A program made the position numbers and the translations under genes. Below, piece after piece: positions 27,937-62,448 of a DNA stretch of 64,000 nt (the stretch's first letter is position 1; each line of letters starts with the position of its first letter). Where the stretch lies: positions 1-64,000 of the forward strand of contig WGND01000020.1 in NCBI GenBank assembly GCA_016124805.1. The letters run 5' to 3'. This DNA comes from Hyphomicrobiales bacterium. GTDB taxonomy: Bacteria > Pseudomonadota > Alphaproteobacteria > Parvibaculales > Parvibaculaceae. The notes below the pieces were generated by a model, which worked only from the letters and a program-made list of their open reading frames with translations, had not been told where the DNA came from and ran no database searches.

Positions 27937-28431
<495 letters not shown>

Positions 28432-37114: not shown

Positions 37115-37129
37115 CGGCAAATCTTGCCG
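37115..37129. promoter_or_regulatory. ftr-like palindrome 1 upstream of flgE
   Basis: CGGCAA-ATC-TTGCCG is a perfect inverted repeat, 74 bp upstream of the sigma-54 element at 37203. It resembles the ftr enhancer sites bound by FlbD in Caulobacter as I recall them. The interval 36992-37278 contains no gene; this site, a second copy and the promoter are what it holds. Confidence 0.65.
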
Positions 37130-37133
37130 GGGG

Positions 37134-37147
37134 CGGCAATTGGTGCC
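37134..37147. promoter_or_regulatory. ftr-like element 2 upstream of flgE
   Basis: CGGCAATTGGTGCC repeats the motif of 37115-37129 with centres about 18 bp apart, i.e. roughly two helical turns, suited to cooperative binding of an activator. It lies 56 bp upstream of the -24 element. Confidence 0.6.
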
Positions 37148-37202
37148 ATCCGCATGAAGCGCCGCGCGATCTTAAGTCATTGAAATATATCGGTTTCCAT
37201 CG

Positions 37203-37217
37203 TGGCCTGCTCCTTGC
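37203..37217 (+). promoter_or_regulatory. Sigma-54 promoter of flgE
   Basis: TGGCCTG-CTCC-TTGC matches the -24/-12 consensus TGGCACG-N4-TTGC with two mismatches and the invariant GG/GC dinucleotides. It is 61 bp before the flgE ATG and would drive flgE-flgK-flgL. Confidence 0.75.
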
Positions 37218-37278
37218 TCTCTATGGGCCAAGGCATTCTCCCGCCCTTCAATGCGGGAAACACCCATGGAGACAAGTC

Positions 37279-38652
37279 ATGAGTTTCTTCGGAACGATGA
37301 GCACTGCGACGACCGGCATCCGCGCACAGTCGAGCGCGCTGGGCAATATCTCGGACAATATCGCCAATTCCCAGACCATCGGGTTCAAGCGAACAGATAC
37401 GAGCTTCTCGGACATTGTGACGGCTTCTTCGAGCCGGAATCATCTGCCGGGCGCCGTGCTGGCCACGCCGAGCTACACAAATAGCGTTCAGGGGTCGATT
37501 GACGCGTCATCGGTGGCCACGCATATGGCGATCAACGGCGAAGGCTTCTTCATTGTCTCCTCGCAGGTGGCGACGGTGGACGGCAAGCCCGTCTATGACA
37601 ATGTGAACTACTACACACGCCGCGGCGATTTCGCGATGGACAAATATGGCTATCTGACCAACGGCGCGGGCTATACGCTGCAGGGTCTGGCTGTTGATCC
37701 GGCGACAGGGAACGCGATTGGCGATTCACCCTCGCGCATCCAGATCAGCCAGGACTTCCTGGCGGCCAAGACAACCAGTGTCATCAACTACAAGGCGAAC
37801 CTGCCGTCCTATCCGATGACGACAAATGCCGATACGGGCATTGCGGGCAGTGAATTGCTGACGCTGGCCTCGATGACCGGCCAGACAGACCTCGACACCA
37901 TCACGGCGGCCAATGCCGACGGGTTCCTCGACCGCACCATCTCGGGCGGCGCCGTGACCGGCTATAACGCGCTGGGCGGACCCGTAAACGTGCAGTTCCG
38001 CTGGGCCAAGCTTGAAAATACCGCTGGTGACGGCGGCACAGGCGGCACAACGGACGAATGGGCGCTCTACTACAAGAGCAATGACACCGCCAATGACGCG
38101 ATCTGGACGAGCACTGGTCAGAGCTACACATTTGATGCCGCCGGCAAGCTGACACCGGCAGTTGATACCTCGACCATCACGGGTGTGACGGTGGATGGCG
38201 TGTCGCTGGGCGATGTGACGCTGGATCACGGCGCGTCCAATATCACGCAGTTTGAAGACAAGAATGGCAGCGCCACGGTCAACAGCATTGACCAGAACGG
38301 CTATCCGTCGGGCGAGCTGGTGAGTGTGGCTGTGTCGGATAATGGCCGCATCACGGGCACCTATACCAACGGCCAGACAGTTGACCTGGCACAGGTGACG
38401 CTGGCGAAGTTCAACTCGCCTGACAAACTCCAGAAGCTTGACGGTACGGCCTTTGCGGCGACGCAGGAATCCGGTGAAGCGCTGCTCGGCGGCACGGGCG
38501 ACATTATTGCCTCGTCCAATGAAGCCTCGAATGTCGATATTGCCGACGAGTTCTCCAAGCTGATCATCACGCAGCAGGCCTATTCGGCCGGTACGCGCAT
38601 CATCACCACGATTGATGACCTGATCCAGCAGACGCTGAACATGAAACGATAA
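37279..38652 (+). CDS. flgE: Flagellar hook protein FlgE
   Basis: The 457-residue protein has the N-terminal rod/hook signature (SFFGTMSTATTGIRAQSSALGNISDNIANSQTIGFKRTDTSF), an internal FlgE/F/G-like region with INGEGFFIVSS and YYTRRGDFAMDKYGYL, and a C-terminal helix ending ITQQAYSAGTRIITTIDDLIQQTLNMKR. It polymerises outside the cell into the hook that joins rod and filament. The ATG at 37279 follows GGAGACAAG. The frame is open back to 36997, but that stretch contains the promoter and is not coding. Confidence 0.96.
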   Translation: MSFFGTMSTATTGIRAQSSALGNISDNIANSQTIGFKRTDTSFSDIVTASSSRNHLPGAVLATPSYTNSVQGSIDASSVATHMAINGEGFFIVSSQVATVDGKPVYDNVNYYTRRGDFAMDKYGYLTNGAGYTLQGLAVDPATGNAIGDSPSRIQISQDFLAAKTTSVINYKANLPSYPMTTNADTGIAGSELLTLASMTGQTDLDTITAANADGFLDRTISGGAVTGYNALGGPVNVQFRWAKLENTAGDGGTGGTTDEWALYYKSNDTANDAIWTSTGQSYTFDAAGKLTPAVDTSTITGVTVDGVSLGDVTLDHGASNITQFEDKNGSATVNSIDQNGYPSGELVSVAVSDNGRITGTYTNGQTVDLAQVTLAKFNSPDKLQKLDGTAFAATQESGEALLGGTGDIIASSNEASNVDIADEFSKLIITQQAYSAGTRIITTIDDLIQQTLNMKR

Positions 38653-38728
38653 GCCATGAGCCGGGCGCGATGAGGTGCCCGGTCTGACGAGACGCTGACC
38701 CCTTGTTTGTCCCTCAGGACTGTTGGAT

Positions 38729-40627: not shown

Positions 40628-40631
40628 GATC

Positions 40632-42104: not shown

Positions 42105-42127
42105 TCTGAGCCCCGCTCAAAGGAAAA

Positions 42128-42155
42128 GGGCCTGCAGTGGATGCAGGCCCTTTTT
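42128..42155. terminator. Bidirectional intrinsic terminator between flgL and flaF
   Basis: GGGCCTGCA and TGCAGGCCC pair around GTGGA and are followed by TTTTT on the plus strand. On the minus strand the stem is followed by TTTTCC. It serves flgL (+) and the flbT-flaF operon (-). Confidence 0.88.
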
Positions 42156-42178
42156 CGTTCAAGCGTCGGTAGGCGCGC

Positions 42179-42553
42179 TCAGGCGGCTTTCTGATAGAGG
42201 CCGGCGGCAATCTCGCGATTGATCGTGATGAGTGTTTCAAGCAGGCGGGCTTCGCCGGTTGTCTGATAGGTCGCGGTCTGCTTGAAAATGAAGACGGCGA
42301 GGCTGGCGATGTTCTGCTTGATGGGTTTGGGCAGGGGGTGATCCATTTCGGCCGCTGAGGCTGCGAAAACCGTCCAGATCTTCCGATTATAGATCAGGTG
42401 GGGTTCGCTTTCGTCGATGCGGACATTGTCGCCCATGTCGCGCAGCTTCTGCAGTCTGGCGGCTGCTTTCAGCAGAAGATTGGCTTCAAACTCGCGCGGG
42501 TCGGAAATGACCATGCGGGAGGAATTTGCATAAGCTTCATGCGCCTTTGACAT
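42179..42553 (-). CDS. flaF: Flagellar biosynthesis regulator FlaF
   Basis: The 124-residue helical protein starts SKAHEAYANSSRMVISDPREFEANLLLKAAARL and continues IDESEPHLIYNRKIWTVFAASAAEMDHPLP, both hallmarks of alphaproteobacterial FlaF. In Caulobacter FlaF promotes flagellin synthesis and secretion in opposition to FlbT. Its start overlaps the flbT stop by 17 bp, so the two are translated as a coupled pair with flbT first. Confidence 0.93.
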   Translation of the reverse strand: MSKAHEAYANSSRMVISDPREFEANLLLKAAARLQKLRDMGDNVRIDESEPHLIYNRKIWTVFAASAAEMDHPLPKPIKQNIASLAVFIFKQTATYQTTGEARLLETLITINREIAAGLYQKAA

Positions 42554-43056: not shown

Positions 43057-43093
43057 CGCCTTCGTGTCGTCTGGCCGAAGCCAGTGGGTGACC

Positions 43094-44209
43094 TTAACGG
43101 ATCAGCGAGAGGACGTTCTGTTCAGCCTGGTTGGCCAGCGAGAGCGTCTGCGTGCTGATGGACTGACGGGTCTGAAGAGCCAGCAGGTTGGCGGATTCTT
43201 CGTTGGAGTCAGCCAGTGTGAGGTTGCCAGCGCCAGTCTGGAGAACGTTGATCAGCGCCTTGGAGAAGTCCTGACGGTTCTGCACGACCGAGAGGTTCGC
43301 ACCGAAAGTCGAAGACTGCTTGCGGAGTGTCGTCGTCGCGGCGTTCAGCTCGGTGATGGCCGAGTTGACGCTGTCGTCGTCGGAGAAGGCAGCTTCCGAG
43401 ATGGAGAGGTCGCCAGCAGCCGTGAAGGTCTTGCCCGTGATGGCCAGCTTGGAGGAGCCATCTTCGTTGAACTTCACTGTCAGCGAGTCACCATTGAGCA
43501 GGTTGACACCGTTGAAGGATGCGTCACCGGCCAGCTGGTCGATCTGGTTGCGCAGATCGTTGAAGTCGGTCTGGTAGGTTGCGCGGTTTTCCGTTTCGGT
43601 CTTGCCGTTGGTCGAGGAGGTTGTGCCGAAGGCGCTGGCAAGTGTGCCGCCGATTTCGAGGTCTTCACCTGTGTCGAGTGTCAGCGAAGCCGTGGCGCCG
43701 CTCACCGAAACAGTCAGGCCCGACACAGTTGAACCGATGGCCGATTTGATTTCCGACGCCAGTTCGGCAGCGGTGTAGTCAGCGGCGTCGATCACAACGC
43801 TGGAAGTCGTGCCACCAGCAACGATCGTGAAGGTACGGGCACCGGCAGAAGCACCCGAGAGGTTGGTTGCCGAAATCGTGGCGTCGAGTGTCGTGTCGGT
43901 TGCCTTGGCCTGAAGCGCCTGGTTGGCGACCGATTTGGCCTGATCGACAAGCTTCTGGATGCCTTTGATGCCTTCGTCAGCCGCGCGAAGTGTCTGCACA
44001 CCGAGGCTCGAGTCGTCAAGCAGGGCGCTCAGATCGGACGCACGGTTGTTGAGGCCCTGAGCTGTGAAGTAAGACTGGGGATTGTCGAGAGCGCTGGACA
44101 CCTTCAGACCTGTCGCAAGACGGTTCTGAGTCGTTTCAAGAAGCGAAGCGGTGTTCTGCAGCGAGAGAAGGTTTGAGCGAACTGCGCTCGTAAGTGTAAT
44201 GCCACCCAT
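43094..44209 (-). CDS. Flagellin (proximal copy)
   Basis: The 371-residue flagellin has conserved ends: N-terminal LTSAVRSNLLSLQNTASLLETTQNRLATGLKVSSALDNPQSYFTAQGLNNRASDL and C-terminal NEESANLLALQTRQSISTQTLSLANQAEQNVLSLIR. A Ser/Thr-rich central domain (about residues 105-240) is a likely site of O-glycosylation. It forms the filament. AAAGGAA lies 8 bp before the ATG. Its upstream 200 bp contain only a weak TTAA-N7-TAAA half-match and no clear sigma-54 element. Confidence 0.95.
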   Translation of the reverse strand: MGGITLTSAVRSNLLSLQNTASLLETTQNRLATGLKVSSALDNPQSYFTAQGLNNRASDLSALLDDSSLGVQTLRAADEGIKGIQKLVDQAKSVANQALQAKATDTTLDATISATNLSGASAGARTFTIVAGGTTSSVVIDAADYTAAELASEIKSAIGSTVSGLTVSVSGATASLTLDTGEDLEIGGTLASAFGTTSSTNGKTETENRATYQTDFNDLRNQIDQLAGDASFNGVNLLNGDSLTVKFNEDGSSKLAITGKTFTAAGDLSISEAAFSDDDSVNSAITELNAATTTLRKQSSTFGANLSVVQNRQDFSKALINVLQTGAGNLTLADSNEESANLLALQTRQSISTQTLSLANQAEQNVLSLIR

Positions 44210-44421: not shown

Positions 44422-45630
44422 TTAACCGAAGAGACGGAGCACGCTCTGTTCAGACTGGTTGGCCAGCGAGAGGGCGGTCGTGCCCAGAGACTGACGGGTC
44501 TGCAGTGTCAAAAGTTTCGCGCCTTCTTCGTTTGAATCGGCCACGGTGAGATTTGATGCACCGGTTTCGAGCGTGTTGATGAGGTTCTTTGTGAAGTCCT
44601 GGCGGATTTCGACCACACCCAGATTGGCGCCGAAGGTGGATGACTGCTGACGCAGGACGCCCGTGGCGGAGTTGAGTGAATCGATGGCTGCCTGAATGTC
44701 GGTGTCGTTGAGGAAGCCATGATTGCCGGGTTCATTGCCAATGGCGGCAATGTTGAGATCGGCGTCCGGCGTCAGGGTGACGCCCGAGATGTCGAGCTTG
44801 CTGGTCTGCTCGCTGTTGAAGAAGATGCTGAGATCATCGCCATTGAGCAGGTTGACGCCCTTGTAGCTGGCATCCTTGGCAAGCTGCGTGATCTGGTCGC
44901 GCAGGTCATTATAGTCTTTCTCGAACTTGTCGCGATTGACGCCATCATTAGCCGAGAGATGCGTGCCGGTGAGGGCGGAAAGCGACACGGTGGCCGCCGG
45001 GGAGCCGCCATCATTGCCGGCGATGGCAATGTCATGGCCGCTGCCGGCTGTGAGCTGCAACTGGCCATCGACGATGGCAGCGGCAACGCCTTCATTTTCA
45101 AATTCGCCACTGGCCGCGGACTCGGCATTGACGGCGTCAATGAGGTCCTGAACGGTTGTGACCGTGGTGCCGGTAGCCGGTGTGCCGACCGTGAATGTCT
45201 GTGTGGCCTCGCCAACTGTCACCACGATCTTGGTGCCGGCTGTGAGGTTGAGGCTTGAAAGCGTGTCCGACCCGTCGGTTGCGAGCGTGGTGCCCGCATT
45301 GCCGGTGAGGGTGGTTGGCTTGAGCTTGGTTTCAAGCGCCTGGTTGGCTGTCGACTTCAAAGTGTCGACGAGGCTCAGGATCGACTTGATGCCTTCGTCG
45401 GCGGCTTTGAGCGTCTGCACGCCCTGGCCCATGGAGTCGAGCAGGTTGTTGAGGTCGGAGGCGCGGTTGTTGAGGCCCTGAGCGGTGAAGAATGCTGTTG
45501 GACTGTCAATGGCGCTGTTGACCTTGAGACCGGTCGACAAACGAAGATTTGTTTCATCGAGCATCCGGGTCGTGTTCTGCATGCTCAGCAGGTTGGACCT
45601 TATGCTGCTAGGAAGAACTACATCAGCCAT
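44422..45630 (-). CDS. Flagellin (distal copy)
   Basis: The 402-residue paralogue of the downstream flagellin has ends LPSSIRSNLLSMQNTTRMLDETNLRLSTGLKVNSAIDSPTAFF and LLTLQTRQSLGTTALSLANQSEQSVLRLFG. The central domain differs in sequence and is about 30 residues longer. GGAGGGG lies 8-9 bp before the ATG. The 327 bp upstream carry a long leader hairpin, a sigma-54 promoter and an ftr-like site, which suggests late, activator-dependent expression and possible leader-mediated control. Confidence 0.95.
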   Translation of the reverse strand: MADVVLPSSIRSNLLSMQNTTRMLDETNLRLSTGLKVNSAIDSPTAFFTAQGLNNRASDLNNLLDSMGQGVQTLKAADEGIKSILSLVDTLKSTANQALETKLKPTTLTGNAGTTLATDGSDTLSSLNLTAGTKIVVTVGEATQTFTVGTPATGTTVTTVQDLIDAVNAESAASGEFENEGVAAAIVDGQLQLTAGSGHDIAIAGNDGGSPAATVSLSALTGTHLSANDGVNRDKFEKDYNDLRDQITQLAKDASYKGVNLLNGDDLSIFFNSEQTSKLDISGVTLTPDADLNIAAIGNEPGNHGFLNDTDIQAAIDSLNSATGVLRQQSSTFGANLGVVEIRQDFTKNLINTLETGASNLTVADSNEEGAKLLTLQTRQSLGTTALSLANQSEQSVLRLFG

Positions 45631-45844: not shown

Positions 45845-45859
45845 GCAAGCGGCGGGCCA
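45845..45859 (-). promoter_or_regulatory. Sigma-54 promoter of the distal flagellin
   Basis: Read on the minus strand, TGGCCCG-CCGC-TTGC differs from the consensus TGGCACG-N4-TTGC at one fixed position. It lies 215 bp before the flagellin start, with an ftr-like site 66 bp further upstream. Confidence 0.75.
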
Positions 45860-45924: not shown

Positions 45925-45938
45925 GGGCAATTAATGCC
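45925..45938. promoter_or_regulatory. ftr-like element upstream of the distal flagellin
   Basis: GGGCAATTAATGCC is the same motif as at the flgE, flgI/fliX and flgF/fliL intergenic sites, 66 bp from the flagellin -24 element. It falls between that promoter and the end of the TPR glycosyltransferase-like gene. Confidence 0.6.
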
Positions 45939-45957: not shown

Positions 45958-47616
45958 TCAGGCAGAAAGCGTCGCGGGCGCGCCGGCCAATTGCGCGCGG
46001 GTGGCCGCATGAATGCGGGCGCAGAGATCGGCGCGGTCAAAACCGGGCTGGATCTGCATGACCTTGAGGGTCGGATACCAGGGGAAGTCGGGCTGTCCGA
46101 GCAGATTGGGATGGGCGGCGGGGGCATAGATGATGCCTTTGGTGCCCAGCGCCCCGGCAAATTCGGATGCCGCATTCCATGGCGCGATGATGAAATCAAG
46201 TTCGCTTGTCAGCGCGCCGACGCCTTCCAGATCGGCATGGGTATCAAGGCCCGGCATCTCATGGATGGTGACGCCAAGGTCGCGGGCCGCCATGTCGAGT
46301 TCTTCGCGCGGATCGGCATATTGCAGATTGATGATATCGAAGGCCTCGTCGCGCAGCAGGGGCAGCCAGTCGGCGATGGCGGTGGTCCAGATTTCGCGGA
46401 CCGGGTCCTTGATGCCCGAGCGCCAGGCAAAGCCGATTTTGGGTTTGCGACCGAGCGAGTCCAGCCATTGGCGCGAGGCCGCGCGGCGCTCAGGGCAGGC
46501 CACAAGATAGGACGGATCGGCGCTGAACTGATCGAGGCGGCGGCGCAACTGGGCAGCCATGATGCCGGTCGGCGCGGTGACATCGAAGTCGAGCTCGCCG
46601 TAATTGTCAAAGCCCGTGGCGAGATTGGTCGAGGGGCGCACGGTGGCGGTGGGCCAGGTGCGCTTATACATGGCGACAATGCGGGGATCGCACTCAATGA
46701 TGACGTGTTTGGCCATGCCGACAAGGTCGTGATAGCAGGTCGAAAAGCGGAAATCGTCGCCAAGACCCTGTTCGCGCCAGACCATGATGGTCTTGTCGCT
46801 GAGGTCTTCGCCCTCCCAGATGAGATCGGGGAAGGGGCGCAGGGGTTTGCGCTCGCCGCTGGCAAAGCCGAAACCGTAAAGGTCCCAGCCCTGTTCGAGA
46901 TGACCGGCGGCCAGAAGCGCCAGCGCCAGATTCCAGCAGATCGCATCGCGCAGATTATCCTGATGGGGCAGGATCAGATTGAGGGCTGTGCGAAGTTCCT
47001 GAATGGCGAGTGCCGGTTTGCAGGACACCAGATAGAGCGAGCCAAGATTGATATGGGTTTCGGGCGCCATGGGCGCGATGCCGATGGCTTGCTGATAGGC
47101 GGCATAGGCTTCTTCAAACATGCCGGCTTCGGCAAGGACGCGGCCGAGGCTGTTATAGGCAAGGCCGCTGCCGGGATTGACCTCGATGGCATGGGCGAGC
47201 AGATCGGCGGCGCGCTGGCGTTCGCCGCGCCGGGCCAGCAGATTGCCGAGATTGACGAGCAGGGGCTCATGATCGGGCAGCAGGCGCAGGGCCTCTTCGT
47301 AAAGTGCTTCAGCGCGCTCGAGATTGTTGAAGTCTGAATAGAGGCGGGCGAGCGTCATATAATGGGTCGCGGTGCCATGCTCGGCCCTGGCGACTTCATC
47401 AAGTTCACCCAGCGCATCGGCGGTGCGGTCGGCGGCCTGCAACATGGCGATGATCTTGGTCAGGGCTTGCGTGTGGGTGGGGTCGGCACGCAGGATTTTG
47501 CGGAAGCGGCTCTCGGCCTCATCAAGGCGACCGGCTTCTTCCAGACGCAGACCCTGCTGGAACTTGCGGTCCAGTGCGTCGCGGTCCACCCGCTTTCGGC
47601 TATTGAGAGATGCCAT
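45958..47616 (-). CDS. TPR protein with GT-B domain, candidate flagellin glycosyltransferase (FlmG-like)
   Basis: The 552-residue protein has about six TPR units in residues 10-240 (e.g. ADALGELDEVARAEHGTATHYMTLARLYSDF). A GT9/GT41-like GT-B domain follows, with MVWREQGLGDDFRFSTCY (about 275), KPKIGFAWRSGIKDP (about 395), DIINLQYADPREEL and DFIIAPWNAASEFAGALG. In Caulobacter FlmG combines a flagellin-binding TPR part with such a domain and attaches pseudaminic acid to flagellin. The same architecture directly upstream of the flagellins suggests the same job here; sugar-biosynthesis genes are not in the window. AGGGG 8 bp upstream supports the ATG at 47616. Confidence 0.72.
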   Translation of the reverse strand: MASLNSRKRVDRDALDRKFQQGLRLEEAGRLDEAESRFRKILRADPTHTQALTKIIAMLQAADRTADALGELDEVARAEHGTATHYMTLARLYSDFNNLERAEALYEEALRLLPDHEPLLVNLGNLLARRGERQRAADLLAHAIEVNPGSGLAYNSLGRVLAEAGMFEEAYAAYQQAIGIAPMAPETHINLGSLYLVSCKPALAIQELRTALNLILPHQDNLRDAICWNLALALLAAGHLEQGWDLYGFGFASGERKPLRPFPDLIWEGEDLSDKTIMVWREQGLGDDFRFSTCYHDLVGMAKHVIIECDPRIVAMYKRTWPTATVRPSTNLATGFDNYGELDFDVTAPTGIMAAQLRRRLDQFSADPSYLVACPERRAASRQWLDSLGRKPKIGFAWRSGIKDPVREIWTTAIADWLPLLRDEAFDIINLQYADPREELDMAARDLGVTIHEMPGLDTHADLEGVGALTSELDFIIAPWNAASEFAGALGTKGIIYAPAAHPNLLGQPDFPWYPTLKVMQIQPGFDRADLCARIHAATRAQLAGAPATLSA

Positions 47617-47717
47617 GATGTTGCCCCTGATCACGCATGGTGATGACTTTGCCCAATGCCCCTAGAAGGCATTGGACATGGTTACCATCAGGTTAAAACG
47701 GCCTGCCCGGCGGGCGA

Positions 47718-48176: not shown

Positions 48177-48493
48177 TTTCCAGCTTCCTGCATTTTGAGA
48201 ATTTCGGAATAGATGGAGTCGGCAATGCCGATGCCGCCGCTCTGGGAAATCTTGGTGCCGTATTGATCGACGAGCAGCGAGCGGAACATGTCTTCACCCT
48301 GACCGCCTTCAAAGGGGCCGTCCGCCTTGATCCCGGCAAACATGGACTGGGTCATGGTGGAGATGAACTGGGCTTCGAAGTCCTGTGCCGCCGCCCAGGC
48401 CTTGGCGTCGGCATGGGGCGTCCGGGCGGGCCTGGGCAGGGTGGCTGTGTGCAGCCAGCCCTGTGACGCGAGAGCGGAGGTGTCGATATTCAT
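48173..48493 (-). CDS. cheL: Rod-binding protein CheL / FlgJ N-terminal domain
   Basis: The 106-residue protein corresponds to the FlgJ rod-cap domain only: AAAQDFEAQFISTMTQSMFAGI (about residues 33-54), GGQGEDMFRSLLVDQYGTKISQSGGIGIADSIYSEILK. The muramidase domain of enteric FlgJ is absent, as is normal in alphaproteobacteria, so a separate wall-cutting enzyme is needed. It lies between flgI and the FlgN-like gene with 1-4-bp overlaps. Confidence 0.88.
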   Translation of the reverse strand: MNIDTSALASQGWLHTATLPRPARTPHADAKAWAAAQDFEAQFISTMTQSMFAGIKADGPFEGGQGEDMFRSLLVDQYGTKISQSGGIGIADSIYSEILKMQEAGK

Positions 48494-49611
48494 TACATCA
48501 CCTCGATTTCGGCCTGAAGGGCGCCGGCAGATTTGATGGCCTGCAGAATGGTGATCATGTCGCGCGGGGAGACGCCGAGGGCATTGAGCCCGTCGACCAG
48601 TTCGCGCAGGCTGATCGAGCCATCGACATAGGCAAGCTGCTTGCCCTTCTTTTCTTCGTCCACGGTGACAGTGGTGCGCGGCACGACGGCTGTCTGGCCC
48701 TGATTGGAGAAGGGCGAGGGCTGGCTGACCTGCGGTGTTTCGCTGACCGAGATGGTGAGATTGCCCTGTGCGATGGCGACCTTGCTGACGCGGACATCCT
48801 GACCCATAACGACGACGCCGGAGGCTTCATCAATGATGACGCGGGCGGGCAGGTCCGGCTCGACGCGGATCTGCTCGATCTGGGTGAGGAGCTGGACGAC
48901 ATCGCCCTTGCGGTTTGACGGCACGGAAAGTTCCACCGTTGTGGGGTTGTCGGCCACGGCGGCATTGCGGCCGAGATAGGTGTTGATGGCGGTGGCGACG
49001 CGCTGGGCCGTTGTCAGATCCGGGTTACGCAGTGACAGGCGCAGGGTCTGAAGCTCGGCGAGGTTGAATTCGATTTCGCGCTCCACAATGGCGCCATTGG
49101 CGATGCGCGCATTGGTGGGGACGCCGCGGACGACGGAAGCCGCTTCGCCCTTGGCCGAGAAGCCGCCCGTGGCGACGGGGCCCTGCGAGACGGCATAGAC
49201 CTGACCATCGGCACCCATGAGCGGGGTGACGAGCAGGACTCCGCCCTGAAGATTGGAGGCATCGCCCAGCGCGCTGACCGTGACATCGATGCGCGTGCCC
49301 TGTGCGGCGAAGGGGGGCAGGTTGGCGGTGACCATGACGGCAGCGACATTTGCTGTTTTCAGCGTGGTGCCGCGCGTGTTGACGCCGAGACGTTCGAGCA
49401 TGCCGATGAGGCTCTGCTGGGTGAAGGGGGCGTTGCGCAGGGTGTCGCCCGTGCCGTTGAGGCCGACGACGAGGCCATAACCGACCAGCATGTTGTCGCG
49501 GATGCCTTCGACATCAACAATGTCCTTGATGCGCGAGGCGGCATGGGCCGGAGCGGGCATGGTGACGCCGACCAGGCTGAGGGCCAGGAGGGTGACGAAG
49601 GCTTGTTTCAT
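48493..49611 (-). CDS. flgI: Flagellar P-ring protein FlgI
   Basis: The 372-residue precursor has a Sec signal (MKQAFVTLLALSLVGVTMPAPAHA). The conserved P-ring sequence follows: SRIKDIVDVEGIRDNMLVGYGLVVGLNGTGD, MVTANLPPFAAQGTRIDVTVSALGDA, VIIDEASGVVVMGQDVRVS and the end ELVDGLNALGVSPRDMITILQAIKSAGALQAEIEVM. It forms the periplasmic ring around the rod. The frame is open to 49809, but a sigma-54 promoter lies at 49677-49691, so translation starts at ATG 49635 or 49611 (chosen); neither has a strong Shine-Dalgarno. Confidence 0.95.
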   Translation of the reverse strand: MKQAFVTLLALSLVGVTMPAPAHAASRIKDIVDVEGIRDNMLVGYGLVVGLNGTGDTLRNAPFTQQSLIGMLERLGVNTRGTTLKTANVAAVMVTANLPPFAAQGTRIDVTVSALGDASNLQGGVLLVTPLMGADGQVYAVSQGPVATGGFSAKGEAASVVRGVPTNARIANGAIVEREIEFNLAELQTLRLSLRNPDLTTAQRVATAINTYLGRNAAVADNPTTVELSVPSNRKGDVVQLLTQIEQIRVEPDLPARVIIDEASGVVVMGQDVRVSKVAIAQGNLTISVSETPQVSQPSPFSNQGQTAVVPRTTVTVDEEKKGKQLAYVDGSISLRELVDGLNALGVSPRDMITILQAIKSAGALQAEIEVM

Positions 49612-49676
49612 GAACTGTGGCAGGTGCCGGGACATATTGTGACCATTTCTACGCCAGTGGATCCATGCCCTCTCTA

Positions 49677-49691
49677 GCGAAGACCGTGCCA
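49677..49691 (-). promoter_or_regulatory. Sigma-54 promoter of the flgI-cheL-flgN operon
   Basis: On the minus strand TGGCACG-GTCT-TCGC has a perfect -24 box and the invariant GC at -12 (TCGC for TTGC). It is 66 bp before the chosen flgI start. An ftr-like palindrome lies 108 bp upstream. Confidence 0.75.
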
Positions 49692-49798
49692 GCCGTTTTG
49701 TGCGAGGCTGACGGTCATATGTCATTGATTTTAAAGCATTTTCATTTGACCCCCTGGGTGGCAAAGCCGGGCTGAAGGGGCAGCATTTACCATCTGCC

Positions 49799-49812
49799 CG
49801 GCAAAACATGCC
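49799..49812. promoter_or_regulatory. ftr-like element between flgI and fliX
   Basis: CGGCAAAACATGCC, extended to a palindrome CCGGCA-N5-TGCCGG, matches the other flagellar intergenic sites. It is 108 bp upstream of the flgI sigma-54 promoter and 16 bp from the CtrA-type box at fliX, so it could serve both directions. Confidence 0.65.
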
Positions 49813-49827: not shown

Positions 49828-49842
49828 TTAACGTCGCATTAA
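49828..49842. promoter_or_regulatory. CtrA-type box upstream of fliX
   Basis: TTAA-CGTCGCA-TTAA is an exact TTAA-N7-TTAA match, 57 bp before the fliX ATG, the distance expected for a site overlapping a -35 region. Confidence 0.6.
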
Positions 49843-49898: not shown

Positions 49899-50333
49899 AT
49901 GAAGATCGGTACGGCCAGAGCGACATCCCAGACAGGCGCCAAGCGTGGCGCTGGTGCGGCACGGGGTTCGTCTGGCGGTTTTTCGGTTTCCGGACCTGAC
50001 AATGCGCGCGCGGCGGCCGGCCTTTCGGGTGCGACCTCAATCGGCATTGTCGATGCGTTTCTGGCCCTGCAGGGGACCGAAGGGGCGGGGGATGCGCTGC
50101 ATTCACCGCGCCGGGCGATCCGCCGGGGCGAGGATATGCTGGATGTGCTCGATGAGATGAAAATCAGCCTGTTGAGCGGCCAGATGCCTGAAAAACAGCT
50201 CAACCGGCTGCTGAAACTGGTGGATGGGCAGCGCAGTCAGGCGCTGGATCCCCAACTGGGCGATCTGCTGGATCAGATCGAATTGCGGGCCCGTGTGGAG
50301 CTGGCAAAATTCGAGTCTTATCATAAAGGCTAG
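49899..50333 (+). CDS. fliX: Flagellar assembly regulator FliX
   Basis: The 144-residue protein has a low-complexity N terminus and the conserved helical region IVDAFLALQGTEGAGDALHSPRRAIRRGEDMLDVLDEMKISLLSGQMPEKQLNRL, typical of FliX. In Caulobacter FliX couples basal-body completion to activation of FlbD, the sigma-54 enhancer-binding protein, and is itself under CtrA. Both signal types flank it here. The ATG at 49899 follows AGAGGG. FlbD is not in the window. Confidence 0.92.
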   Translation: MKIGTARATSQTGAKRGAGAARGSSGGFSVSGPDNARAAAGLSGATSIGIVDAFLALQGTEGAGDALHSPRRAIRRGEDMLDVLDEMKISLLSGQMPEKQLNRLLKLVDGQRSQALDPQLGDLLDQIELRARVELAKFESYHKG

Positions 50334-53555: not shown

Positions 53556-54287
53556 TTAGGCGGCCTGTCCGAGTGTGCTGATGGCGCGGGCGCGCATATC
53601 GTCTGCTGTTTCGATGAGCTTCCGGGCGCGTTCATAGGAGCGCTGGACCTCGATCATGTTGGTCATTTCCAGGATGGGCTTCACATTGGAACCTTCGACC
53701 GCGCCCTGAATGAGGCGCACACCTGTGGCTGGAATTTCGGCCTGAGTCGTCGACATCATGGACTGGCCCTCATTTTTCATGGCCTGCATGTTGTCGAAGC
53801 TGACGACGGCGAGCTTGCCGCGTGTGCCTGCGCTGGTGGTGATGGTGCCGTCGCGGGCAATGGTGATGCTCTTCTCATCCGTGGCAAAGGTGATGGGGCT
53901 GCCGGCATCGCTCAGGATGGGGTCGCCATTGGAATTGACGAGCTGGCCCTGATCATCAAGCTGCATGTGGCCATTGCGCGTATATTGCGTGCCACCGGGT
54001 GTCTGCACCTTGAAAAAACCCTGGCCGGTGATGGCGATGTCGAGCGGGTTGCCGGTTGTTTCCAGCGAGCCGTCGGACATGTCGCGGGTCTGGCCATAGT
54101 CCTGCACGAAGGAGAGCGTCTTGTCCGGGCTCTGCTCGGTTGCGTTTTTCATTACATACTCTTCAAAGAGCATATTTTCCGCCTTGTAGCTGGGCGTGTT
54201 CATGTTGGCGATGTTGTTGGCGATGGTCGACATCTGGCGCGACATGACCATCTGCCGTGACAATCCGATGAGAAGTGCATTTTCCAT
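53556..54287 (-). CDS. flgF: Flagellar rod protein FlgF
   Basis: The 243-residue protein has SRQMVMSRQMSTIANNIANMNTPSYKAENMLFEEYV at the start, LDIAITGQGFFKVQTPGGTQYTRNGHMQLDDQGQLV, and a C-terminal MTNMIEVQRSYERARKLIETADDM. It is a proximal rod component. It heads the operon; a sigma-54 promoter lies 69 bp upstream of its ATG. Confidence 0.95.
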   Translation of the reverse strand: MENALLIGLSRQMVMSRQMSTIANNIANMNTPSYKAENMLFEEYVMKNATEQSPDKTLSFVQDYGQTRDMSDGSLETTGNPLDIAITGQGFFKVQTPGGTQYTRNGHMQLDDQGQLVNSNGDPILSDAGSPITFATDEKSITIARDGTITTSAGTRGKLAVVSFDNMQAMKNEGQSMMSTTQAEIPATGVRLIQGAVEGSNVKPILEMTNMIEVQRSYERARKLIETADDMRARAISTLGQAA

Positions 54288-54355: not shown

Positions 54356-54370
54356 GCAGGGGCTGTGCCA
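54356..54370 (-). promoter_or_regulatory. Sigma-54 promoter of the flgF operon
   Basis: On the minus strand TGGCACA-GCCC-CTGC matches the consensus at nine of eleven fixed positions, with GG and GC intact. The whole interval 54288-54599 has no gene; it holds this promoter, an AT-rich stretch and the ftr-like site 77 bp upstream. Confidence 0.75.
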
Positions 54371-54446: not shown

Positions 54447-54460
54447 CGGCAATAAATGCC
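54447..54460. promoter_or_regulatory. ftr-like element between flgF and fliL
   Basis: CGGCAATAAATGCC is the same motif as at the other flagellar sites, 77 bp from the flgF -24 element and about 140 bp before fliL. Confidence 0.6.
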
Positions 54461-54599
54461 CATCACAGGCGCCAATCACAACGCTTCGTTAACCAAAGTG
54501 AGCGAGCATTGGCCTCATGTCCGGTGAAGACCGGCAAATCCCGGATGGGCATCCGGACTTTGAATGGTGGGCAATCTCATGGCGGCAATGGAAGCTGAT

Positions 54600-55079
54600 A
54601 TGTCTGATGAAGCGGGTGCGGAAGCGCCGGCCAAGAAGAAACTGTCAGGCAAGGTTCTCGTTCTCTATATCGCGTTGCCGCTTCTGCTGCTGATTGGTGG
54701 CGGGGCGGGCGCCTATTTTTCCGGCCTGCTGGGGGGCGGCGAACATGAGGCTGACCATGAGCCCGTGGTTGCCGCGGCACCGGTTTTCTACGATCTGCCC
54801 GATTTTCTCGTCAATCTCAGCGGACCGCCGCCCCAGCATTATCTGAAGATGCGCGTCACGCTGCAGATCGCCGATCCCGAAATCGCCAAGACCCTTGATG
54901 CGCAGATGCCGCGCGTCCTCGACAGTTTCCAGACCTTTCTGCGCGAGATGCGCCCCGAAGACCTGCAAGGCTCGGAAGGCATGTTGCGGCTGAAGGAAGA
55001 GTTGCTGCGCCGGATCAATCTGGTTCTTGATCCGACCGTTGTCAGCGACGTGTTGTTCAAAGAAATCATCGTTCAGTAA
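54600..55079 (+). CDS. fliL: Flagellar basal-body-associated protein FliL
   Basis: The 159-residue protein has a short charged N terminus, one membrane helix (VLVLYIALPLLLLIGGGAGAYF, about residues 18-39) and the periplasmic stomatin-like FliL domain (FYDLPDFLVNLSG...YLKMRVTLQIADPEIAKTLDAQMPRVLDSFQTFL). It surrounds the stator and supports motor torque. GGAAG 5 bp upstream favours ATG 54600; 54579 is possible. It is followed by fliM after 32 bp. Confidence 0.92.
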   Translation: MSDEAGAEAPAKKKLSGKVLVLYIALPLLLLIGGGAGAYFSGLLGGGEHEADHEPVVAAAPVFYDLPDFLVNLSGPPPQHYLKMRVTLQIADPEIAKTLDAQMPRVLDSFQTFLREMRPEDLQGSEGMLRLKEELLRRINLVLDPTVVSDVLFKEIIVQ

Positions 55080-56703: not shown

Positions 56704-56720
56704 GCCAGACAGGACCGACC

Positions 56721-57479: not shown

Positions 57480-57497
57480 CACGAGAATTTCAAAGCC

Positions 57498-57512
57498 TTA
57501 AGCGCCACTTAA
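57498..57512. promoter_or_regulatory. CtrA-type box upstream of the large AMIN/TPR gene
   Basis: TTAA-GCGCCAC-TTAAC matches the CtrA consensus fully, including the terminal C. It lies 117 bp before the chosen start of the downstream gene. Confidence 0.55.
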
Positions 57513-57628
57513 CCGGCGATCTTTATGCTGATTGGGCGGGCGTTTAGGCGTGTGCGCAGGGGCCAAATCACGTCATGGTGTGATGTGGCAGGACTATTGA
57601 TTCGTAACGGTTTTTGAAGGCACGCCAC

Positions 57629-60600
57629 GTGGGCAAGATGGGCGCTGGAAAATCAGGCATTTGGGGCCGGGGCGGGCTGCTGCTCGCGCTTGGCCTGATG
57701 CTGTTCTTCGCCATCATGCCCGCCGCCGAGGCCGCCACCAAACTTCAGGCCAGCTATACCGAGGAAGATGGCTATGGCCGTCTGGTCTTCAACTGGCCCG
57801 GTCAGATGCCCGGCTACAAGGCTGATCTGATGGCCGGCGTGCTGGTGCTCCATTTCGATGAGCCCTTCACGCTCGACCTTGATGACCTGATGCGTCGCAT
57901 GCCGCGCTATGTGGCGCTGGCCCGTCAGGATGCCGATCTCAAGACATTGCGCGTGGCGCTGAAGGCCGAATTTACCGAGCGCACGCAAATGGCCGAGGGC
58001 AAGCTCTATCTCGACCTGCTGCCGGAAACATGGAAAGGCGCGCCACCGCCGCTGCCCGCCGATGTGCTGGCGCGCATGGCAGCCGCGGAAGAACTCAAGA
58101 AGGAAGCCGCCCTGGAAGCCGCCCAGGCCAAGGAAGCCGGTGTTGTGGTGCCGGTTGCCGAGGTGCCCAAGCTGAAGGTGCGTGTGGGGCGGCATGAGGG
58201 CTTTACGCGCATCGTCTTCGACTGGAACCAGCCGGTGCTATATGCGCTGGTGCAGAAGGGCAATCAGGCCACGCTGACATTTGACCGCGATGCCAAGGTT
58301 GATCTGGCGCCGCTGCGTGTGGATGCGCCGCCCTATCTCGATACCATCAAATCCATGAATGAGGACGGCCATCTGGCTGTTGTGCTGACGCTGAAGAAAG
58401 ATGTTCAGATTGCCGATTTCCGTGAGGATCTGGGCATTGTTCTGGATTTGAAGCCGAGCTCGCCCGCCGGACCTGTGGTGCAGGAGCAGACGCCGGCGCA
58501 GGAACGCGATGATCGCATGGCCGCAGCAAAGACCGATGCCGACAATGAGGCGGTGGCGGAGAAGACATCGGCGCCGGCCAATATCGTACCGGATGTGCAT
58601 GAGGCAGAGGGCCATGGTGAGGCCGACACGCATGAGGTGGCGGCTGCCGAGTCGGACGCCACCGGGCCGGCGCCAGAGGCCGAACGCAAGCCGATCCGCG
58701 ACCATGTTGTGGTGACGAGCGACATTGCCAGTGATCACGCCGATATTATTTTTGACTGGGAGACGCCTGTGGGCGCGGCGGTCTTCGTGCGCGGCAATGC
58801 CCTGTGGATGGTCTTTGACGAGAAGATGCCGCTGGATACGACGGCGCTGGCAATTGATTTCACGCGCCAGTTCGGCACGCCCCGCATTGTCGATCTGGAT
58901 GACGGCGTGGCGATGATTGTGACATTGCGCGAGCTCGCCCTTGTCAGCGTGAGCGAAGAGGGCGACCAGTGGCGCATTTCGACGGGTTCGCAGCTGACCA
59001 ATACAGGCCGCCCCATCACATTGACGCGCAGCTGGCGCGAAACAGGCGAGGGGCTTGTCTCCTTTGACATGCGCGGGGCGCGCAAGGTGATATCGGTCAC
59101 CGATCCCTCCTCACGCGACCGCCTGATGGTGGCAACGGCGCGCGGCCCCGTCCAGTCGCTGCAGACACCGCGCGGCTTTGTCGAATTCCGGGCGCTGCAA
59201 AGCATGCAGGGTCTTGTGATCCAGCCCATTGCCGATGATCTGCTCGTGACGGCGGCCCCGGATGCCGTGCTTGTGTCGCGTGCCATTGGCCTGACCCTGT
59301 CGCTGGATGCACCGCGCTCGGACATGGTGCCGGGTGCGGGCCAGATGGTGGCAACATCCTCGCCTGCCTATATTGATTTTGAAGGCTGGAAGCAGACGCC
59401 GGTGCGTGGCTTCACTGAGGGTCGCAAATATCACATGGCGCGCATTGCCGCGGCGACGATGGAAAATGTCGGCCGGATGCGTCTGGACTATGCCAAATTC
59501 CTGCTTGCTCATCGCATGGGGCCGGAAGCCCTGACCGTGATGAAGGCTGCGCGCGACAGCGAGCCCGGTCTGGAATATGAGCCTCTTTTCCGCTCGATGC
59601 GTGGTGTCGCGGCGGTGCTCTCGGGGCGCTATGCCGAAGCGATCAAAGATCTTTCGGTCAGTGAATTGATGCATGACAGCTATGCGGCGGCCTGGCGTGG
59701 CGTGGCGCGGGTCGGCATGCAGGACTATGGCGAAGCGAAAGTGGATTTCGCGCTGGCGATGCCGGTGCTGGCCAGCGTGTCGCCGGATATTCAGGCCATG
59801 TTCCGTGCCAAGGCGGCTGAGTCCGCCATTGCGCGCAAGGAGCCGGCGCTGGCGCAGTCTTTCCTGTCAAATATTCCGCCGGGGGCGGGCGACGCGCGGA
59901 CGCGGGCGGAGCTGCAGCTTGTGCGGGCGCAGATCACTGAAGCCTCTGGCCATGCGGCGGATGCCGCCCATCTCTATGATGTGGCGATTGCCGAAGGCTA
60001 TCTGCCGGTCACGGCGCGGGCCCGCTTTGGCAAGGCGCAGCTTGCCTATGCCAATGGTGAATTGACCGAAGATGAATATGCCCGCGAACTGCTCCGGCTT
60101 GATCTGGCCTGGCGCGGCGACGGCCTTGAGATTGCGGTGCTGCGCAAGCTGGCCGATCTCCGGCTGAAGGAGAATGATATTGTCGGTGCGCTCAAGGTGA
60201 TGCGGACCGTTTCCAGGAATTTCCCGGATAATGACGAGACGCGCCTGATGTATGGGCGGATGTCTGATCTCTTCGCGGATTTCTTCATCAGCGGCAAGGC
60301 GGAGAAAATGCCCGCCGTGCAGGCGCTGGCCTTCTTCTATGACCTTCAGGACCTGACGCCGATCGGCCAGAAGGGGGACCAGATGATCCGCCAGCTGGCC
60401 GAGCAGCTTGTCGCTGTCGACCTGCTGCCGCAGGCCGAGGAATTGCTGAAATACCAGATTGAAAACCGTCTTCACGGCTCTGTTGCCAAGGCGCAGGTGG
60501 CCGCGCGTCTGGCGAGCATCTATCTGCTCGACCGGCAGGCGGAAAAGGCCCTGGGGATTTTGCGCGATACCAAGCAGGACGGTCTGCCCGATGATCTGGC

Positions 60601-61081
60601 AGAACGTCGCCGTCTTATCGAGGTGCGCGCGCTGGCTGAAATGAAGCAGACGGATTTTGCCCTTGATCTGCTCGCCAGCATGGATGGCCGTGTGGTGGAA
60701 GAGTTGCGCGCCGACATTCTCTGGGATGGCCAGCGCTGGGGCGATTGCGGCATGGCCGTGGAAGAATTGCTGGGCGAAAGCTGGAAGAGCGACAAGCCAC
60801 TTGATGACGCGACGCGCTTTGACGTGATGCGCGGGGCGATTGCCTATTCGCTTGCGGGCGATGAAGCCGGGCTGTCGCGCATGCGGACCAAATTTGGTGA
60901 GGCCATGCGCAAGAGCCAGGATGCCAGTGCCTTTGAAACGGTGAGTGACCCGATTGTGAAGCAGGGCACAGCTTTCCGCGAGATGGCCACCAAGATTGCC
61001 TCGGTCAATACGCTGGACCGCTTCGTCGCCTCGCTGCGCAATGGTGATGTGGTGGCCGCGGCAGAACCTGCGGTCAATTAG
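57629..61081 (+). CDS. Large periplasmic AMIN-like/TPR protein in the flagellar island, function unknown
   Basis: The roughly 1,150-residue protein has a membrane anchor or signal (LLLALGLMLFFAIMPAAEAA). It then has three AMIN-like beta modules recognisable by GRLVFNWPG (about residue 48), TRIVFDWNQPVLYALVQ (about 191) and ADIIFDWETPVGAAVFV (about 370). An acidic Ala-rich linker precedes the third. The C-terminal half (about 600-1,040) is helical with TPR-like units. AMIN domains often bind peptidoglycan or secretins, so a scaffold between wall and motor is plausible. GAAGG 8 bp before GTG 57629 decides the start; TTG 57614 and ATG 57638 are alternatives. It follows the MotE-like gene. Confidence 0.75.
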   Translation: MGKMGAGKSGIWGRGGLLLALGLMLFFAIMPAAEAATKLQASYTEEDGYGRLVFNWPGQMPGYKADLMAGVLVLHFDEPFTLDLDDLMRRMPRYVALARQDADLKTLRVALKAEFTERTQMAEGKLYLDLLPETWKGAPPPLPADVLARMAAAEELKKEAALEAAQAKEAGVVVPVAEVPKLKVRVGRHEGFTRIVFDWNQPVLYALVQKGNQATLTFDRDAKVDLAPLRVDAPPYLDTIKSMNEDGHLAVVLTLKKDVQIADFREDLGIVLDLKPSSPAGPVVQEQTPAQERDDRMAAAKTDADNEAVAEKTSAPANIVPDVHEAEGHGEADTHEVAAAESDATGPAPEAERKPIRDHVVVTSDIASDHADIIFDWETPVGAAVFVRGNALWMVFDEKMPLDTTALAIDFTRQFGTPRIVDLDDGVAMIVTLRELALVSVSEEGDQWRISTGSQLTNTGRPITLTRSWRETGEGLVSFDMRGARKVISVTDPSSRDRLMVATARGPVQSLQTPRGFVEFRALQSMQGLVIQPIADDLLVTAAPDAVLVSRAIGLTLSLDAPRSDMVPGAGQMVATSSPAYIDFEGWKQTPVRGFTEGRKYHMARIAAATMENVGRMRLDYAKFLLAHRMGPEALTVMKAARDSEPGLEYEPLFRSMRGVAAVLSGRYAEAIKDLSVSELMHDSYAAAWRGVARVGMQDYGEAKVDFALAMPVLASVSPDIQAMFRAKAAESAIARKEPALAQSFLSNIPPGAGDARTRAELQLVRAQITEASGHAADAAHLYDVAIAEGYLPVTARARFGKAQLAYANGELTEDEYARELLRLDLAWRGDGLEIAVLRKLADLRLKENDIVGALKVMRTVSRNFPDNDETRLMYGRMSDLFADFFISGKAEKMPAVQALAFFYDLQDLTPIGQKGDQMIRQLAEQLVAVDLLPQAEELLKYQIENRLHGSVAKAQVAARLASIYLLDRQAEKALGILRDTKQDGLPDDLAERRRLIEVRALAEMKQTDFALDLLASMDGRVVEELRADILWDGQRWGDCGMAVEELLGESWKSDKPLDDATRFDVMRGAIAYSLAGDEAGLSRMRTKFGEAMRKSQDASAFETVSDPIVKQGTAFREMATKIASVNTLDRFVASLRNGDVVAAAEPAVN

Positions 61082-61131
61082 AGCTTTTCAACAGACAGTG
61101 ATTTTCAGGCGGCGACAGCTTTGGCTTCTGG

Positions 61132-61887
61132 CTAGAGGCCGAAGCTGTGCACCAGACTGCCTGCAATCAATGACCAGCCATCCACCAGCACGAAGAATAT
61201 GAGCTTGAAGGGGAGCGAGATCACCACGGGCGGCAGCATCATCATGCCCATGGACATCAGCACCGAGGCGACAACCATGTCGATGACGATGAAGGGCAGG
61301 AAGACAAGAAAGCCGATTTCAAAGGCGCGGCGCAATTCGCTGATCATGAAAGCGGGCACCAGCACCTGAAGGCCGATATCGGTGGCTTCTTCGGGTTCGG
61401 GCGCCTTGGCGAGATCGACAAAGAGCTTGAGGTCTTCCTTGCGCACCTGGGTCAGCATGAAGGCCTTGAAAGGCTCGGATGACTTTTCAAAGGCTTCGGC
61501 AAATTCAATCTGCTTGTTCATCAGCGGCTCAATGCCGTTCTGATAGGCCGTGGTGAAGGTTGGTGTCATCACGAAGGCCGTCAGGAACAGTGCCAGGCTG
61601 ACCATCACCGTGTTGGGTGGGGATTGCTGGATGCCGATAGCCGTGCGCAGGAGCGAGAGCACCACGATGATACGCACAAAAGAGGTGACCATGATGAGGA
61701 TGGATGGCGCGAGGCTGAGCACCGTGATGAGGGCAACGATCTGCACCACATTGTCGGTGAGCCCAAAATTATCTGCCAGATCGACCTTGATGGTGTCGGC
61801 AAATGCGGGATCGGCCAGCACCAGCGCGGTCAAGGCGGCAAGGGCGGCCATGGCATAGCGGCTGCTGTTCTTGTGAAGGAGGCTCAT
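61132..61887 (-). CDS. fliP: Flagellar type III export gate protein FliP
   Basis: The 251-residue precursor has a signal peptide (about residues 1-31), then the conserved FliP core: VQIVALITVLSLAPSILIMVTSFVRIIVVLSLLRTAIGIQQSPPNTVMVSLALFLTAFVM, LVPAFMISELRRAFEIGFLVFLPFIVIDMVVASVLMSMGMMMLPPVVISLPFKLIFFVLVDGW. It forms the export gate with FliQ and FliR. fliP sits apart from fliQ, on the opposite strand. Its ATG overlaps the fliO stop as ATGA. Confidence 0.97.
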   Translation of the reverse strand: MSLLHKNSSRYAMAALAALTALVLADPAFADTIKVDLADNFGLTDNVVQIVALITVLSLAPSILIMVTSFVRIIVVLSLLRTAIGIQQSPPNTVMVSLALFLTAFVMTPTFTTAYQNGIEPLMNKQIEFAEAFEKSSEPFKAFMLTQVRKEDLKLFVDLAKAPEPEEATDIGLQVLVPAFMISELRRAFEIGFLVFLPFIVIDMVVASVLMSMGMMMLPPVVISLPFKLIFFVLVDGWSLIAGSLVHSFGL

Positions 61888-62294
61888 GCTTGCTGTTCCG
61901 CATTGAGGGTGTTGGGGCGCTGCATCATGGAGGTGAGGCGCGTGAGCCAAGGTGGCATGACGATCTGCGGGGCAGGCGTCGTGGCACGCGCGGCTGACTG
62001 AATTTCGCTGTCCGGGACGGCTTCGGGTTCAGGCGCATCAATGCCGCTTTCGATGAGCAGATTCTGCTCGCCCATGAGAATGAGATGTTCCTTGCCGTCG
62101 CGACGAATGAGCAGGAGACGGTGTTTGGCGTCGATGGCTTTGACTTCGACAATGGCCAGACGCTTGGGCGCGGATGTGGGGTGCCAGCCGCCATTAGCCA
62201 GACCCAGACGGCGCGCGGCATAGGCGCAAAGGCCGATAAGGCCGATGATGAAGACCAGTGCCGCAATGAAGCGGAAGATTTCCGAAAGTTCCAT
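61884..62294 (-). CDS. fliO: Flagellar biosynthesis protein FliO
   Basis: The 136-residue protein has one N-terminal membrane helix (FRFIAALVFIIGLIGLCAYAARRL) and the short cytoplasmic domain KRLAIVEVKAIDAKHRLLLIRRDGKEHLILMGEQNLLIESGI, characteristic of FliO. It assists assembly of the FliP ring and is translationally coupled to fliP. The ATG at 62294 is chosen because it starts the conserved region; the frame extends to 62366 close to a CtrA-type box. Confidence 0.9.
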   Translation of the reverse strand: MELSEIFRFIAALVFIIGLIGLCAYAARRLGLANGGWHPTSAPKRLAIVEVKAIDAKHRLLLIRRDGKEHLILMGEQNLLIESGIDAPEPEAVPDSEIQSAARATTPAPQIVMPPWLTRLTSMMQRPNTLNAEQQA

Positions 62295-62370
62295 TTGCCC
62301 AGTTCCCCGTGCCCATGAGGGGAAACCCCTCGGGATGTCCCGTACTGGGAAGAATTTGCCCCCCACATGC

Positions 62371-62385
62371 TTAATGACGGGTTAA
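62371..62385. promoter_or_regulatory. CtrA-type box between fliO and flgB
   Basis: TTAA-TGACGGG-TTAA is an exact TTAA-N7-TTAA match, 77 bp before fliO and about 190 bp before flgB, in a 283-bp divergent intergenic region. Confidence 0.6.
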
Positions 62386-62435
62386 GAGCGAGGCAGGCTG
62401 TGCGATTTGCTGGTTACCCAAAGATTGAGGCGCTG

Positions 62436-62448
62436 GGCAAAGTTTGCC
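62436..62448. promoter_or_regulatory. ftr-like palindrome between fliO and flgB
   Basis: GGCAAA-G-TTTGCC is a perfect inverted repeat of the same type as the other flagellar sites. No -24/-12 element was found on either strand within 110 bp. With the nearby CtrA-type box this suggests repression of an early promoter rather than sigma-54 activation. Confidence 0.55.

Follow-up and report, generated by a model that had tools for sequence, protein, structure and literature searches.

A recurrent palindrome at flagellar promoters of a Parvibaculaceae genome: predicted ftr sites of FlbD and their spacing to sigma-54 elements and CtrA boxes

Several flagellar intergenic regions of the Hyphomicrobiales bacterium with GenBank assembly GCA_016124805.1 (Parvibaculaceae) carry the same short palindrome, which raises the question of which factor reads it and whether one protein could serve late and early flagellar genes alike. 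The window, i.e., the whole stretch of 64,000 nucleotides analysed here (WGND01000020.1, positions 1 to 64,000), is part of contig 10 of a genome of 3.21 Mb in 20 contigs, whose closest FlgG relatives belong to Parvibaculum (73–79% identity). With high confidence we regard CCGGCA-N5-TGCCGG, the consensus of the class matrix, as the predicted ftr binding site of the regulator FlbD, together with the whole switch account given below. The mechanism is already known from FlbD and ftr of Caulobacter; what goes beyond the textbook is the geometry of the sites and their two positions at fliF.

The presence of a recurrent palindrome at the flagellar intergenic regions was confirmed. A preceding sequence-only reading had placed six sites in five such regions, and its coordinates proved exact or one base 5'. 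The core GGCAA-N4-TGCC is exact at 6/6 sites (starting at 37116, 37135, 45926, 49800, 54448, and 62436). While the half-sites GGCAA and TGCC stood as described, the gap of 3–4 bp did not, as it is 4 bp at all six palindromes. A leading C is found on the plus strand at 37115, 37134, 49799, and 54447 and on the opposite strand for the site at 62436; position 45925 is a G where the leading C is expected. Four regions indeed pair the palindrome with a sigma-54 element (starting at 37203, 45859, 49691, and 54370). The pairing of early regions with CtrA boxes held for fliX and fliO/flgB but not for fliL, where no CtrA box of at least 7/8 was found in the window. The features are listed below region by region; names of the genes listed are based on NCBIfam or PF profile matches, whereas other gene names were assigned by eye from translations.

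37116..37128, unstranded: ftr-type palindrome 1 upstream of flgE (class matrix 23.3 bits; centre 81 bp from the sigma-54 element)
37135..37147, unstranded: ftr-type palindrome 2 upstream of flgE, weaker than palindrome 1 and 19 bp from it (12.9 bits by the window matrix; sigma-54 element 62 bp away)
37203..37217, plus strand: sigma-54 element TGGCCTGCTCCTTGC for flgE
36997..38652, plus strand: flgE, hook protein, open frame (FlgE homology from about residue 95)
45926..45938, unstranded: ftr-type palindrome upstream of a flagellin gene
45845..45859, minus strand: sigma-54 element for the flagellin gene (ftr centre 73 bp away)
44422..45630, minus strand: flagellin gene, here called fljB
49800..49812, unstranded: ftr-type palindrome between flgI and fliX
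49677..49691, minus strand: sigma-54 element for flgI (ftr centre 115 bp away)
48493..49809, minus strand: flgI, P-ring, open frame (FlgI homology from about residue 93)
49828..49842, unstranded: CtrA box TTAA-N7-TTAA towards fliX, 8/8 (29 bp between box and ftr centres)
49899..50333, plus strand: fliX, whose product is the FlbD partner in Caulobacter (PF10768, 4e-39; NCBIfam FliX models matched below their cut-offs)
54448..54460, unstranded: ftr-type palindrome between flgF and fliL
54356..54370, minus strand: sigma-54 element for flgF (ftr centre 84 bp away)
53556..54287, minus strand: flgF, proximal rod
54573..55079, plus strand: fliL, early gene
62436..62448, unstranded: ftr-type palindrome between fliO and flgB
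62371..62385, unstranded: CtrA box towards fliO, 8/8 (ftr centre 64 bp away)
62452..62466, unstranded: CtrA-like box towards flgB, 7/8 (17 bp between box and ftr centres)

Within the window, GGCAA-N4-TGCC matches nine places on either strand, six of which fall within the 2,297 bp of flagellar intergenic sequence delimited by hand between 34 and 64 kb (expected 0.32; binomial p 1.6e-7). First-order Markov simulation of this intergenic DNA yielded a mean of 0.046 matches and a maximum of 2 in 5,000 sequences. As the pattern was picked after the sites had been seen, an unseeded word count in relatives is the stronger control. In the whole genome the pattern gave 160 strand-hits compared to 15 for the reversed pattern, so that the bare word is not rare. 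A degenerate pattern matched 59 places in the genome; 44 rows, corresponding to 42 distinct places, were scored with the class matrix, and six of the nine top places were flagellar. Non-flagellar places were listed by their longest open frame only, and such frames span intergenic sites as well. The class matrix was trained on the same sequences that it scores, a circularity of which the dyad counts are free, and thresholds were set by hand. Rfam at gathering thresholds revealed no match in the window.

For the unseeded count, all 4-mer dyads were tallied with gaps of 0–10 (fliL/flgF, flgB/fliO, flagellin) or 0–12 (fliX/flgI, fliF), and this de novo search, which had been put forward as a check, returned the palindrome as top or joint top dyad at fliL/flgF, fliX/flgI, and fliF. 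GGCA-N5-TGCC led the non-Parvibaculum fliL/flgF regions with 39/51 (best of five shuffles 13), the palindrome dyad was joint top with the sigma-54 word in the class-wide draw of fliX/flgI regions (50/89; shuffles at most 11), and it was again the top dyad upstream of fliF (42/65; shuffles at most 13), where one of the 65 regions (L212) was misplaced and had only 58 bp upstream of its match. The fliL/flgF region was obtained from 73 of the relatives, which were the best 80 of 211. FliX was found in 155 of the 289 genomes drawn from the class, and 90 of these were read, our own included, leaving 89 others, three with regions below 100 bp. For fliF, 65 of the 68 genomes with FliF were read (G073, G225, and G238 left out). 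Scored with the window matrix, ftr exceeded the 99% shuffle level in 65/73 fliL/flgF, 38/43 fliX/flgI, 11/14 flgB/fliO (13 of the 14 from the Parvibaculum group), and 16/21 flagellin upstream regions. As a side observation, G184, G295, and G296 each harbored a second good-scoring FliF gene, suggesting two flagellar systems.

Concerning the factor itself, the idea of a single regulator was well supported, and this regulator is most likely FlbD, because the genome encodes a match to the NCBIfam equivalog NF050807 (815.5 bits against a cut-off of 750), because FliX is present, and because FlbD, ftr, and the sigma-54 element are jointly missing from Arboricoccus pini, which has FliF. FlbD carries a sigma-54 domain and a Fis-type helix-turn-helix. 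CtrA (NF045991, 426 bits against a cut-off of 350) and RpoN are also encoded, FliX being identified by PF10768 (4e-39). The FlbD homologue lies in the fliF gene run of contig 7 (L036), where fliF (PF01514) is followed on one strand by fliG, fliH, and fliN (by eye) and then flbD; from gene order and shared strand, flbD is predicted to be in the same operon as fliF. The ctrA gene (L036, 133–840, minus strand) shares the strand of the fliF-flbD-flhA gene run and lies about 4 kb past it. The motif was also recovered at further flagellar promoters of the genome: on contig 7, an ftr site and a sigma-54 element precede fliK, and at fliF a 7/8 CtrA box is followed, 24 bp downstream, by a palindrome of which one half-site is weak.

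For the search in relatives, genomes of 47 of the 80 named loci were chosen and 46 searched, and the N-terminal part of FlbD was found with E below 1e-25 in 39 of them. In 36 of the 39 genomes that possess both, inspection by eye placed FlbD at most 5 kb after FliF and on its strand, the other three having the two on separate contigs. Arboricoccus pini (L110) possesses FliF and lacks FlbD, and revealed neither ftr nor a sigma-54 element at fliL/flgF; fliL/flgF itself is kept, and the species is a possible natural case of rewiring. Marinimicrococcus is uninformative on the pairing because FliF, FlbD, and ftr are all missing.

The switch would then work as follows. CtrA would fire the early genes first, i.e., the fliF operon with flbD, fliX, fliL, and flgB. 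FlbD, presumably a sigma-54 enhancer-binding protein under FliX control, would be allowed to act by FliX once the early structure is built, and would bind ftr about 50–140 bp from the sigma-54 elements, turning on the genes for rod, ring, hook, and flagellin as well as fliK. The fliF promoter of this genome has its site immediately after the CtrA box, where bound FlbD would occlude the core promoter and most likely shut off its own operon. Direct support for this account comes from the sites, their recurrence in relatives, and their helical register in the pooled data, and from FlbD, FliX, CtrA, and RpoN being encoded. Binding, FliX control, activation, and fliF repression are taken by analogy from Caulobacter, for which they are reported in PMC3930126, PMC3096577, and PMC7064773, and we infer the same protein-site pairing and effects for this organism.

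On the late side, a sigma-54 element with a nearby ftr site was found at flgE, one flagellin gene, flgI, flgF, and fliK, at distances of 81, 62, 73, 115, 84, and 90 bp in our genome. The flgI spacings in relatives showed a best period of 10.9 bp (p 0.0005, which is the floor of the spacing periodicity test; n=59 of 89, leaving out the near relatives L121, L124, L126, L139, L153, L154, and L205 and rows below score limits or outside 40–150 bp). All 44 non-Parvibaculum flgF values gave a best period of 11.4 (p 0.0005), and flgI pooled with flgF collapsed by relatedness (n=80) one of 10.8 (p 0.0005), with agreeing phases (8.1 and 8.5 bp for a period of 10.5). These pooled data thus suggest that ftr sites keep helical phase with sigma-54 elements. 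Activation of late genes, as originally proposed, draws support from this phase and from the sigma-54 elements near the sites.

On the early side, CtrA boxes of our genome matched 8/8 at fliX and fliO and 7/8 at flgB and fliF, and the fliO-side distance between ftr and CtrA was 64–65 bp in 10/14 flgB/fliO regions. Counting ftr upstream of the CtrA box as positive and downstream as negative, 45 of 61 fliF pairs within 90 bp (66 regions) fell at +18 to +21 or −24 to −20. The upstream pairs of fliF, fliX, and fliL agreed in phase at period 10.5 (8.8, 8.3, and 8.2 bp), and the pool of 119 pairs at 12–66 bp gave a best period of 10.5 (p 0.0005; L281, L283, and L295 left out besides the relatives dropped for the flgI test). 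The same pool reduced to 50 distinct gene-distance values still yielded p 0.002 (scan 0.005), which suggests that ftr sites keep helical phase with CtrA boxes as well.

Arrangements at fliF were classed as upstream (ftr 16–31 bp upstream of the CtrA box), downstream (20–25 bp downstream), or both. Among 95 fliF regions (L212 dropped; L257 and L295 from one genome, both counted), 39 were upstream, mostly at 19 bp, 18 downstream (L277 included), and nine both, among them L266 with an AT-rich stretch of several CtrA-like boxes; the ratio of 39 to 18 reflects an unbalanced genome draw. In the remaining regions there was no CtrA box (14), no ftr (12), or another arrangement (3). Our genome belongs to the downstream class, while the Parvibaculum group had sites on both sides (+21/−24) at all five loci read. 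The upstream site was found in Ferrovibrio (2/2) and Elioraea (3/3), and the downstream site in Roseomonas (3/3). By eye, 14 of the 39 upstream-class regions had a second site 17–33 bp further, seven at exactly 21 bp, and the downstream site overlaps a −10-like CTA. In Caulobacter, most CtrA-activated promoters are reported to have the CtrA site at −35 (PMC11264516); with such a position, the downstream fliF site would cover the core promoter, whereas the upstream site would be near −54, almost touching CtrA. The downstream class requires four changes on the FlgI tree (59 genomes) compared to 9.4 in shuffles and is therefore clustered by lineage; a single origin would be compatible with the well-supported branches of that tree.

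We tentatively propose, as a possibility that we hold for somewhat doubtful, that fliF promoters, which drive flbD, follow a two-state grammar, with a site at about +19 on the same face (sometimes in tandem), at about −24, or both, that flbD autoregulation may have changed in sign or strength between lineages, and that FlbD may contact CtrA from upstream besides covering the start site. Neither helical phasing nor alternative fliF arrangements were found described in open-library literature, whose scope did not include the primary ftr papers and the FlbD binding-site mapping study of Fumeaux et al. (named in PMC12421884), so that this absence is no proof of novelty.

Repression of early genes, the other half of the original suggestion, fared differently from promoter to promoter. 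Repression of fliF is plausible from the position of the site, and PMC3096577 and PMC3930126 report that Caulobacter FlbD represses fliF. Unlike at our fliF, the ftr site lies upstream of the CtrA box at fliX and flgB, and repression of the early genes in the window is no more than a possibility. Overall, the original interpretation was partly supported.

Several observations weigh against the FlbD/ftr switch or parts of it. For the flgF spacings collapsed by relatedness (n=21), the best-fitting period was 7.9 bp (p 0.033 at 10.8); no significant periodicity was seen with distinct flgF spacings (n=18, p 0.19). For ftr and CtrA at single promoters, distinct values gave p 0.053 (fliF), 0.019 (fliX, at 10.5), and 0.21 (fliL), with scans of 0.22, 0.19, and 0.76, and fliX and fliL together gave p 0.063 (scan 0.37). 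A separate fliX test showed no periodicity, either with distinct values (n=18, p 0.18) or with 8/8 boxes (n=12, p 0.68). Among the leading dyads listed, the palindrome was missing for Parvibaculum-group flgB/fliO, for Parvibaculum-group flagellin upstream regions, and for non-Parvibaculum flagellin upstream regions (n=6). The 12 of 95 fliF regions lacking ftr included both Geminicoccaceae. Five genomes had ftr and no match to FlbD; as the FliF match was missing too, they look like incomplete assemblies. In L098, L115, and L117 (genomes of 1.9–2.1 Mb), FlbD was present and no matrix hit was obtained at fliL/flgF, which may reflect motif drift. In the window, a second flagellin gene (43094–44209, minus strand) has neither an ftr site nor a strong sigma-54 element in front. 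Finally, that the palindrome consensus equals the Caulobacter ftr consensus is presumed from the position of the sites and background knowledge.

Among the alternatives, the one that survives best, possible and yet hardly to be preferred, holds that sites in divergent regions serve the late sigma-54 gene only, CtrA boxes being near merely because the intergenic DNA is short, with FlbD idle at fliX, fliL, and flgB. Of the window's three early regions, two are indeed divergent from a sigma-54 gene, and on distinct values the ftr-CtrA periodicity of fliX and fliL is weak; the shared sites at fliX/flgI and fliL/flgF may serve only the late gene. However, fliO/flgB keeps the site in 11 of 14 regions without a strong sigma-54 element, and at the palindrome of our genome no sigma-54 word of at least 11 on the scan's own scale was found nearby. 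Moreover, the fliF site stands at set distances from the CtrA box, no sigma-54 word of at least 12 was found in the fliF regions classed by CtrA distance (scan without the corrected L277), and the phases of fliX, fliL, and fliF agree.

It is unlikely, in our opinion, that FlbD works positively with CtrA at early promoters whose ftr site immediately precedes the CtrA box, so that flbD autoregulation would differ in sign among lineages. The 39 of 95 fliF regions with an upstream site in register and almost touching the CtrA box would fit such a role, as would the second site in 14 of them. Against this, the measured case, Caulobacter, is one of repression, and a protein bound upstream can equally block or lock CtrA. 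Very little speaks for binding by another Fis-type regulator (NtrC, NtrX, or the fourth sigma-54 activator): our genome does encode four proteins with a strong sigma-54-activator domain, but the best sites are at flagellar genes, FlbD is the flagellar-operon member with an equivalog match, and site and FlbD are jointly missing in Arboricoccus pini. A chance or compositional motif of GC-rich DNA, for which the genome-wide excess over the reversed pattern might be cited, was rejected as next to impossible based on the intergenic concentration (p 1.6e-7) and the unseeded dyads at fliL/flgF, fliX/flgI, and fliF.

Compared to known systems, FlbD and ftr as predicted here resemble those of Caulobacter crescentus in the FlbD equivalog within the fliF operon, the presence of FliX, early genes with CtrA boxes and late genes with sigma-54 elements, one palindrome shared by both classes, and fliF among the targets. 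Beyond that species, the site was traced here in many alphaproteobacterial families with a pooled register to sigma-54 elements and CtrA boxes, and at fliF, known for Caulobacter from the literature, the upstream site was the commoner one in the unbalanced draw (39 versus 18). NtrC-type enhancers are likewise palindromes bound by a Fis-type helix-turn-helix upstream of −24/−12 elements, with a different consensus, whereas the present sites flank CtrA boxes too. Divergent early flagellar promoters with CtrA boxes are also described for the fla2 system of Rhodobacter sphaeroides (PMC6180460); for the Rhodobacteraceae discussed there, FlbD is reported absent, unlike here.

With these data, a regulon known mainly from one model species is extended to promoter rules legible in the sequences of the whole class, and the open point of one protein activating sigma-54 promoters and restraining CtrA promoters is made testable, the natural fliF variants (upstream, downstream, and both sides of the CtrA box) serving as ready-made comparisons. 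Specialists may find the helical register and the two-position grammar of fliF most worth their attention.

Some minor observations were made besides. A good palindrome at 27962–27974, with a sigma-54-like word 126 bp off, lies between frames read as sulfatase and ferredoxin and is probably due to chance. At one non-flagellar place of our genome (L337), the palindrome is inside a frame read by eye as an alpha/beta hydrolase. A perfect CtrA box (57498–57512), where no ftr site was found, precedes a large frame similar to tetratricopeptide repeat (TPR) proteins (57614–61081). Beside the flagellin genes, a TPR-containing frame (45958–47634, minus strand) resembles FlmG, a flagellin glycosyltransferase, by description only (PMC7591256).

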